Assembly: GCA_030447865.1 (NCBI GenBank) | Contig: JAUJOD010000002.1 | Span: forward strand, 644,473 to 708,472 | Direction: 5' to 3' | Length of the DNA stretch: 64,000 bases | Origin: Nocardioidaceae bacterium | GTDB taxonomy: Bacteria > Actinomycetota > Actinomycetes > Propionibacteriales > Nocardioidaceae | In this document: one piece after another, positions 970-3,691 of the stretch | How positions within the stretch are numbered: the first letter of the stretch is position 1 | How the letters are laid out: each line of letters begins with the position of its first letter | The notes under the pieces: generated by a model | What the model was told of the DNA's origin: nothing | The model's input: the letters and a program-made list of their open reading frames with translations, nothing else | Databases searched by the model: none | Made by a program: the position numbers and the translations under genes

Positions 970-3492
970 TCAGCCGACGACGACGTTGACCACCTTGGGC
1001 GGCCGAGTGACCACCTTGCGCACGGGCGACGTCCCGATCGCGTGCACCACCGACGGCTCAGCCAGCGCGAGACGTTCCAGGTCAGCCGCTGAGACCGACG
1101 GGCTGACTTGCAGCTTGCCGCGCACCTTTCCCTGCACCTGCACGATGCAGGTCACCTCGTCCTCAACCAACAGCGTGTCCTCGGCGCGTGGCCAGCCGGC
1201 TTTGGCGACGGTCGGGGAATGCCCCAGTCGCTCCCACATCTCCTCGGCGGTGTAGGGCGCCACCAGGCTCAAGATCACCGCCACCGTCTCGGCCGCCTCC
1301 CGCACCGCCGGGTCGGCCGGCCCGCAGCCGGTGTCGATGGCCTTGCGCGTCGCGTTGACCAGCTCCATCACCCGGGCGACGACCACGTTGAAGCGGTGTA
1401 CCTCCAGCAGGGCCGTAGCCTCCGCAATCGTCTTGTGCGTCGTCTTGCGCAGCGACACATCACCAGCGGTGACGTCGACGCCCCGCTCGCTGGTCACGTC
1501 GCCGCTCAGCCGCCACGCCCGTTGCAGGAACCGCAGTGAGCCACTGGGGGACATGTCGGCCCAGTCGATGTCGTCCTCGGGCGGACCCGCGAACACCATG
1601 GTCAGCCGCACGGCGTCGACGCCGTACTCGGTGATCTGCTCGCCCAGGTCGACGCCGTTGCCCAGCGACTTGCTCATGCCGCGGCCCTGGTTGATGACCT
1701 CCCCCTGGTTCAGCAGCGCCGTGAACGGCTCGACGAAGTCCAGGTAACCCATGTCGTGCAGCGCCTTGGTGACGAACCGGGAGTACAGCAGGTGCAGGAT
1801 CGCGTGCTCGACCCCGCCGACGTACTGGTCGACCGGCGCCCAGCGGCGCAGCGCCTCCACGTCGAACGGCTGCGTGTCGTCGTTCGGGGTCGGGTAGCGC
1901 AGGAAGTACCACGAGGAGTCCACGAACGTGTCCATGGTGTCGGTGTCGCGCTGCGCCGCGCCGCCGCACTTCGGGCACTCGACGTTGACCCACTCGGTGG
2001 CCGCACCCAGCGGCGATGTGCCCTTGGGCAGCAGGTCAGCACCCCGCATGTCGGGCAGTACGACGGGCAGGGCGTCCTCCGGGACCGGCACCTCACCGCA
2101 GTTCTCGCAGTGGATGATCGGGATCGGCGCTCCCCAGAAGCGTTGCCGCGACACCAGCCAGTCGCGCAGCCGGTAGTTGACGGTTCCGCGGCCGTCGCCC
2201 CTGCGTTCCAGGTACTGGATGATCGCCGCCTTCGCCTCGACGACGTCCATCCCGTTCAGGTCAACCTCGTCGTTGGCGGAGTTGATGGCCGGCCCCTCGC
2301 CGGTGTACGCCTCGCCGTCGAAGTCCTCTGGCGGCTGCACCGTCCGCACGATCGGTAGCCCGAACTTCGTCGCGAAGTCCCAGTCGCGCTGGTCCTGCCC
2401 TGGGACCGCCATGATGGCGCCGGTGCCGTAGTCGGCCAGCACGTAGTCGGCGGCGTACACGGCGATGTGCTCGCCGTTGACCGGATTGACCGCGTGGACG
2501 CCCAAGAAGACACCGGTCTTCTCCCGGCCCTCGGTCAGCCGCTCGATCTCCGTGGTCCTGCGCACCTGCTCCAGGTAGTCGTCCAGGGCCGGCCGCTGCT
2601 CCGGCGCGCACAGCTCGGCGGCCAGCGGGGCGTCGGCTGCGACCACGAAGAACGTCGCACCGAACAACGTGTCGGGGCGCGTGGTGAACACCGTGACCTT
2701 CTCGCGCGTGGGTCGCCCTTCTCGAGACGACGCCTCGTCGGCTTCCCCTGAACCGACGATCCGGAAGTCGACGTGCGCACCCTCCGACCGGCCGATCCAG
2801 TTGCGCTGCATGGTCAACACGCGGTCGGGCCAGTTGCCCTTGAGCGCCTCCATGTCGTCCAGCAACCGGTCGACGAAGTCGGTGACCTTGAAGTGCCACT
2901 GAGTCAGCTCACGCTTGGTCACCTCGGTGCCGCAGCGTTCACATCTGCCGCCGATGACCTGTTCGTTGGCCAGCACGGTCTGGTCCTGTGGGCACCAGTT
3001 GACCGCCGAGGCCTTGCGGTAGGCCAGCCCGTTCGCGAACAGCCGCAGGAACAGCCACTGGGTCCACTTGTAGTACTCCGGATCGGAGGTGTGCAGCCGC
3101 GTCGACCAGTCGAACGAGATGCCGTACCGGCGGAACGACTCCGCCTGCTTCTCGATGTTCTTGTACGTCCACTCCGCCGGATGCTCGTTGCGCCTTATCG
3201 CGGCGTTCTCCGCGTTCAACCCGAAGGAGTCCCAGCCGATGGGGTGCAGGACGTCGTACCCCTGCTGGAACCAGTACCGCGCGATCACGTCCGCCAGCGC
3301 GAAGACCTCGGCGTGTCCCATGTGCAGGTCGCCTGAGGGGTACGGGAACATGTCGAGCAGGTAGCGACGCTCGCGGCTGCCGTCATCGACCGCCTTGAAC
3401 GGGTCGAGGTCGGTCCACACCTTCAACCACTTGTCCTGAACGGCGTGCACGTCGTACGTCGCGCGCGGTTCTCGTTGCTGTTGCTCAGTCAT
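970..3492 (-). CDS. leuS: Leucyl-tRNA synthetase
   Basis: 840-residue class I synthetase charging tRNA-Leu. The HIGH motif reads HMGH within [11 protein letters not shown], followed by [14 protein letters not shown] typical of LeuS; the KMSKS loop reads GMSKS, a variant also found in Streptomyces-type LeuS. An editing (CP1) domain with [11 protein letters not shown] is present between them, and CxxC zinc-like pairs occur near the N-terminal third. An upstream in-frame GTG at 3684 would add 64 residues, but these cover the attenuator; the ATG at 3492 has AGGAG about 10 nt upstream and starts where LeuS homology starts. Expression is very likely controlled by the leader peptide and terminator at 3595-3691. 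Confidence 0.97.
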
Positions 3493-3594: not shown

Positions 3595-3620
3595 AAAAAA
3601 GCCCCTCAGGCATGAGGGGC
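3595..3620 (-). terminator. Intrinsic terminator in the leuS leader
   Basis: On the minus strand GCCCCTCA-TGCC-TGAGGGGC (3620-3601) forms a perfect 8-bp stem with a 4-nt loop followed directly by six T residues (3600-3595). It lies about 100 nt before leuS, inside its 5' leader, so it must be conditionally read through for leuS to be expressed. Confidence 0.85.
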
Positions 3621-3654
3621 AGCCGCGCTGATGATGACCGTGGTCAGCGCGGCT
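3621..3654 (-). promoter_or_regulatory. Regulatory hairpin overlapping the leader-peptide stop codon
   Basis: A perfect 11-bp stem, AGCCGCGCTGA paired with TCAGCGCGGCT (3654-3644 with 3631-3621), with a 12-nt loop. Its 5' arm covers part of the leader-peptide stop codon and its 3' arm abuts the terminator stem at 3620. A ribosome stalled on the Leu codons or terminating at the stop would affect this hairpin, as expected of an attenuation switch. The exact alternative (antiterminator) pairing is not obvious by eye. Confidence 0.6.
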
Positions 3655-3679
3655 AACTAAGAAGCAGGACCTGCCGCAT
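3653..3679 (-). CDS. Leucine leader peptide of leuS (MRQVLLLS)
   Basis: Eight codons, Met-Arg-Gln-Val-Leu-Leu-Leu-Ser then TAG, with three consecutive Leu codons (CTG CTT CTT). It is followed immediately by an 11-bp hairpin and a T-tailed terminator, the classical layout of a ribosome-mediated attenuator. A TACCCT -10 box ends 6 nt before the ATG, so the peptide is probably translated from a leaderless transcript. Low charged tRNA-Leu would stall the ribosome on the Leu run and favour readthrough into leuS. The mechanism is inferred from layout. Confidence 0.75.
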
Positions 3680-3685
3680 GACACC

Positions 3686-3691
3686 AGGGTA
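3686..3691 (-). promoter_or_regulatory. -10 box of the leuS leader transcript
   Basis: TACCCT ends 6 nt before the leader-peptide ATG at 3679, placing the transcription start at the peptide start codon. Confidence 0.5.

Follow-up and report, generated by a model that had tools for sequence, protein, structure and literature searches.

The element upstream of leuS

The window (the whole stretch of 64,000 nucleotides of Nocardioidaceae DNA that was analysed) carries leuS, and directly upstream of it on the same strand lies a compact leader element in which a promoter box, a short leucine-rich reading frame, a hairpin (hairpin 1) and a terminator follow one another (Table 1). A preliminary description had listed a -10 box, a peptide with three Leu codons, an 11-bp hairpin and an abutting T-tailed 8-bp terminator before leuS, and we confirmed these parts base by base. 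The -10 box stands 6 nt before the leader ATG, hairpin 1 begins with the A and G of the leader stop codon, and the terminator stem-loop adjoins it with no gap. By all sequence signs the leader would be leaderless, with a putative transcription start at 3679.

Table 1. Parts of the leuS leader element and their positions in the window.
Feature	Position	Strand	Basis
-10 box TACCCT (TANNNT type)	3691-3686	-	Sequence; TANNNT kept in leuS-linked copies
Leader peptide MRQVLLLS*, ATG 3679 to TAG 3653	3679-3653	-	Sequence, homologous leaders; leaderless start putative
Leader codons ATG CGG CAG GTC CTG CTT CTT AGT TAG	3653..3679	-	
Three regulatory Leu codons, CTG CTT CTT	3667-3659	-	Conserved Leu run
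Hairpin 1, 11 bp (proposed antiterminator)	3654-3644 paired with 3631-3621	-	Fold and covariation
Intrinsic terminator stem-loop, 8 bp, 4-nt loop	3620-3601	-	Fold; family core near-invariant
Terminator U-tract, T6	3600-3595	-	Sequence
leuS (leucyl-tRNA synthetase), 840 aa, ATG 3492	970..3492	-	Full-length leuS matches in relatives

Inspection of the window sequence between the terminator and the leuS ATG revealed no TA dinucleotide, and therefore no TANNNT promoter box can lie there. A second promoter of this type in the interval was thus rejected, and a polymerase that starts at the leader promoter has to get through the terminator to reach leuS. The leuS frame itself stays open upstream through both hairpins and the leader to a GTG at 3684 (3684-3493, minus strand), so that a gene caller may annotate leuS 64 codons too long.

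The minimum free energy of the stretch was -40.9 kcal/mol, as against -28.3 +/- 3.14 kcal/mol in dinucleotide shuffles (z = -4.0; 0 of 200 shuffles), and the region contains two terminator-like sites where 0.2 are expected. In an Rfam scan that included the T-box and riboswitch families, no family reached its gathering score over the stretch; the match found there was anti-hemB, at 18.6 bits against a gathering score of 49.5. Abutting hairpins were seen at one of 12 other terminators in the loci, a sample too small to give a background rate.

Conservation before leuS in Actinomycetota

Among relatives collected by a LeuS protein search, the element was found upstream of leuS in about 20 loci, and it was absent from four (L005, L013, L025 and L026) although their upstream sequence was readable. 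A pattern scan of named genomes yielded about 80 leuS-linked copies, in Micromonospora, Actinoplanes, Nocardioides, Marmoricola, Kribbella, Actinomadura, Nonomuraea, Kitasatospora, Arthrobacter, Knoellia, Intrasporangium, Klenkia and others. Since this pattern demanded CTGCTYCTT and CCCCTC/GAGGGG, its copies were not used to judge the conservation of codons or terminator. The nearest named locus that bears a leader belongs to a Nocardioidaceae MAG, whose LeuS is 86% identical in its N-terminal part.

We also built a covariance model of the element. The window, which was in the training set, scored 92 bits, and genomes with the MRAVRLLLSEPR leader, which were outside it, scored 66-72 bits. Matches of any kind occurred in 44 of 396 phylum genomes and in 172 of 297 class genomes, the latter figure being an upper bound for leuS because the weaker matches stand mostly at other genes. 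In the phylum sample all 29 matches of at least 43 bits were located upstream of leuS and those below 43 bits mostly preceded other genes, while 49 of 60 matches in the class sample lay upstream of leuS. The preliminary description had staked its reading on the leuS upstream regions of related actinobacteria, and there the Leu run, the hairpin and the terminator proved to be conserved in many genera.

Strong copies were also seen before leuS in one genus of another class of the phylum (L151, L155, L156 and L174); the terminator stem of L151 is CCCUCC/GGAGGG instead of CCCCUC/GAGGGG. L008 and the related genomes G026 and G029 have two leuS-type genes near each other; at L008, if not elsewhere, each of the two has its own leader. 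From the same genus there is only one other genome (L028, positions 107-200); it keeps the promoter box, hairpin 1 and the terminator, and has neither an ATG nor a Leu run. The leuS of that assembly is also broken by frameshifts; the loss may thus be a sequencing error or decay, an error being likely in view of the frameshifts.

Leader peptide and hairpins

We obtained 153 distinct leuS-linked copies, of which 151 could be parsed. With a spacing of 4 to 10 nt permitted, a TANNNT box preceded the leader start codon in 151 of the 153, by 6 nt in 106 copies and by 7 nt in 45. Given this fixed spacing, the leaders are expected to be leaderless throughout. A Leu run was present in 149 of the 151 parsed leaders. 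Of the 73 copies that had not been chosen by a pattern containing CTT, 64 have this rare codon as their last Leu codon. They comprise 11 of the 12 copies that came from the protein search and 53 of 61 model matches; the latter count may be somewhat inflated, since CTT-selected copies formed part of the training set of the model. By comparison, CTT makes up 1.0% of the 7,926 Leu codons in the leuS genes of the same copies and none of the 65 Leu codons in the leuS of the window.

To assess covariation, 33 diverse copies were aligned by sequence alone. Hairpin 1 showed double-sided compensatory changes in 7 of its 10 modelled pairs, and the covariation score of the structure exceeded those of all 500 shuffles and of every slid control. 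The terminator core CCCCUC/GAGGGG is nearly invariant across the family and hence gives no covariation signal. The covariance check that had been proposed for the two hairpins therefore came out in favour of hairpin 1, and the terminator stem was too invariant to show covariation. The spacing between the parts is also steady. The last Leu codon lies 3-8 nt before hairpin 1 (5 nt in 106 of 149 copies), and in the minimum-energy folds of 148 of 149 copies a gap of 0-2 nt separates hairpin 1 from the terminator, despite the great variation of hairpin 1 in length and loop.

Open frames contain short Leu runs often enough that a small reading frame could come to lie beside an ordinary terminator by accident. 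This explanation is refuted by the class-wide conservation and the covariation of the element, and we give it a negligible chance; conservation in many genera is what we regard as the decisive argument against it. The claim that leuS is preceded by a leucine attenuator built on a leaderless leader is instead supported by the conserved spacing of -10 box and start codon, the Leu run, the hairpin and the terminator. Its leaderless part is also backed by leuL2, a homologue in Streptomyces lividans whose transcription start site has been mapped (PMC8079986).

Folding in the presence of a ribosome

Next, each leader was folded with the ribosome footprint masked, from the RNA start to 12 nt from the first A-site base. 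Hairpin 1 had a probability of 0.99 when the first Leu codon of the run occupied the A-site; this value fell to 0.20 when the last Leu codon was there, and to 0.00 with the ribosome at the stop codon. The terminator had a probability of 0.96-0.98 in every ribosome state, and in equilibrium folding hairpin 1 and the terminator coexist. Of all the elements, hairpin 1 alone is thus predicted to change with the position of the ribosome.

In a classical attenuator of the trp type, a third pairing formed during a stall at Leu codons would sequester the 5' arm of the terminator. Antiterminator and terminator hairpins have indeed been named for Streptomyces leuS leaders in an earlier report (Seliverstov 2005, PMC1262725). 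We therefore looked at the pairing of the terminator 5' arm with upstream sequence before the 3' arm is made. Over the 149 copies, the median probability of this pairing was 0.065 with a stalled ribosome, which is not above the 0.220 at the stop codon. The same procedure gave 0.625 and 0.015, respectively, for Escherichia coli trpL, and is thus able to detect an antiterminator of this type. The stalled value exceeded 0.5 in only 13 of the 149 copies, mostly from Micromonospora, in which a shifted hairpin 1 (GGGCC with GGCCCC) pairs with the terminator 5' arm at about 0.6. In most of the 149 leuS copies, then, masked folding revealed no antiterminator helix mutually exclusive with the terminator, and we consider the trp-type explanation unlikely. 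The suspicion, already voiced in the preliminary description, that the mechanism is not of the trp type gains support from this lack of a conserved antiterminator pairing alongside the positive trpL control.

We also considered a pairing between the Leu codons (CUYCUU) and the terminator 3' arm (GAGGGG), which looks convincing on inspection and has 7-8 pairs including G-U, as an antiterminator. It was rejected because a stalled ribosome would hide it, which gives the wrong sign, and because the perfect local terminator stem wins.

The predicted coexistence of both hairpins would also suit a role of hairpin 1 as a mere polymerase pause hairpin that synchronises ribosome and polymerase, the terminator being constitutive or tuned in some other way; leaders of the trp type do contain pause hairpins. 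However, this would give no difference between the RNA of starved and fed cells in a useful direction, and it leaves the constant 0-2 nt gap to the terminator unexplained, so that we judge it about as improbable as the trp-type explanation. Still less probable, in our estimate, is translational control in the manner of the LEU element of leuA, where a pseudoknot with a base stem of Leu codons and Shine-Dalgarno sequence has been proposed (PMC1262725). Here the CUYCUU codons, which are complementary to AGGAG-type sites, would mask the Shine-Dalgarno region of leuS by base pairing until a stalled ribosome released it; both sides are nearly invariant and hence uninformative for covariation. A conserved T-tailed terminator lies in between, however, and the number of nucleotides separating the Leu run from the estimated start of leuS ranges widely, from about 80 to 260.

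The same layout at other genes

Weaker matches of the model showed tandem hairpins with a gap of 0-2 nt also before cimA (citramalate synthase), ilvB and leuA, the names being given by eye from the downstream protein sequence. These leaders, and a leuC-like one, carry Ile, Val or Leu codons: the cimA attenuators have Ile codons, as in L221 (leader ending in MTLHLIIT*), and examples for ilvB and leuA are L182 (ending in LVLIT*) and L179 (ending in LLLL*). The copies comprise L181, L218, L219, L221-L225, L232 and L235 for cimA, L180, L182, L184, L185, L187, L191, L220 and L234 for ilvB, L179 for leuA and L189 for the leuC-like gene. Our literature search found no description of cimA attenuators of this tandem-hairpin layout.

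In the genome of the window (97.8% complete), no acetolactate synthase exceeded the family cut-off and no LeuA match was found, and ilvC lies near gatCAB without ilvB or ilvN beside it (L264). The organism is possibly an auxotroph for branched-chain amino acids that keeps a leucine-sensing leuS.

Proposed mechanism

We propose, with a probability of about 0.8, that the leuS element controls transcription by ribosome-mediated attenuation in response to the charging of tRNA-Leu, with hairpin 1 as the putative antiterminator. The first transcribed base would be the A of the leader ATG or a neighbour of it, and the ribosome would load on the bare 5' end. When charged tRNA-Leu is plentiful, the ribosome would reach the stop codon and its footprint would cover the 5' arm of hairpin 1, which would leave the terminator free to form and end transcription before leuS. 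When leucyl-tRNA is scarce, the ribosome would stall on CTG-CTT-CTT just upstream of hairpin 1, and hairpin 1 would form with a gap of 0-2 nt to the terminator stem. It would then hinder closure of the terminator inside the RNA exit channel of the polymerase and allow read-through into leuS, so that the leader would be expected to respond to leucine.

Because hairpin 1 is the sole ribosome-dependent element, it must hinder the terminator if leucine shortage is to raise leuS. Given that the two hairpins coexist at equilibrium, such antitermination needs a steric or kinetic effect. The simplest idea is that hairpin 1, placed right at the foot of the terminator stem, acts as a steric block in the exit channel. 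We put the chance that antitermination is steric at roughly even. Kinetic or triplex effects may act instead; triplexes have been invoked in modelling the trp attenuator of S. venezuelae (PMC4833913). The literature search yielded no leucine-response or read-through data on any leuS leader.

We tentatively suggest, as an idea that is rather more likely to be wrong than right, that a single family unites the Actinomycetota leaders of leuS, cimA, ilvB and leuA, in which the abutting hairpin blocks the terminator sterically and no competing pairing is involved. In such a family, translation of the leader would switch the gene off and an untranslated leader would leave it fully expressed, the reverse of trp-type behaviour. 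All four kinds of leader share the tandem-hairpin layout with no visible trp-type antiterminator. The window instance itself is ordinary, and the useful part is the general pattern: leuS attenuation is common in Actinomycetota and no Streptomyces curiosity, and it appears to be built on a leaderless leader nearly everywhere. With this pattern an old puzzle noted in 2005, that of actinobacterial attenuators with missing parts, now becomes a simple experiment. Of more interest is how antitermination comes about; here the trp-type answer was looked for and mostly not found.

Comparison with known systems

Attenuators of synthetase genes are known, one before leuS was predicted in Streptomyces in 2005, and the layout is common in the class; the expectation that this element would be an unusual variant was therefore not borne out. 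The leader of E. coli trpL is alike in combining codons for the regulating amino acid with a terminator. It differs in its competing 2:3 antiterminator, which the same test detected, and it is not leaderless.

Among the systems described in a report on mycobacteria (PMC13236596), the polycysteine uORFs (Canestrari et al. 2020, cited there) are leaderless short reading frames that act as amino-acid-responsive attenuators, but they concern cysteine, another operon and translational attenuation. In the attenuator of Mycobacterium tuberculosis ilvB1, the same source states, a ribosome at the stop codon masks the antiterminator and a stall releases it; changing the LVVI codons to Ala abolishes induction, and removal of the terminator relieves the phenotype. 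This ilvB1NC attenuator is alike in its uORF of branched-chain amino acid codons and in the ribosome at the stop codon that masks the antiterminator, whereupon the terminator acts. It differs in gene and codons, and its antiterminator is only assumed to be the equal of hairpin 1. In S. coelicolor, codon mutations in the ilvB leader had no effect and mutants of the leuA leader did not behave as in classical attenuation (both cited in PMC1262725), which counts against the generality of the mechanism.

The closest systems are those before leuS in Streptomyces. Seliverstov et al. (PMC1262725) predicted leuS attenuators in S. avermitilis and S. coelicolor in 2005. These share the leader peptide with Leu codons, the antiterminator hairpin and the terminator; the accessible part of the report covers these two Streptomyces only and describes them with no mention of a leaderless start. 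The leuL2 of S. lividans TK24, MRAVRLLLSEPR*, which lies before leuS and was found to be leaderless by transcription start site mapping in 2021 (PMC8079986), is like the window leader, a putatively leaderless one, in the hairpin and U stretch before leuS, and the identical peptide occurs in several of the leuS-linked copies found here. The leuL2 peptide is four residues longer than the window leader, and leaders of its type terminate at a UGA within the 5' arm of the hairpin, whereas the UAG of the window lies at the hairpin base. Judged from these sequence comparisons, the element in the window is a real, conserved leucine attenuator of the kind already described in Streptomyces.
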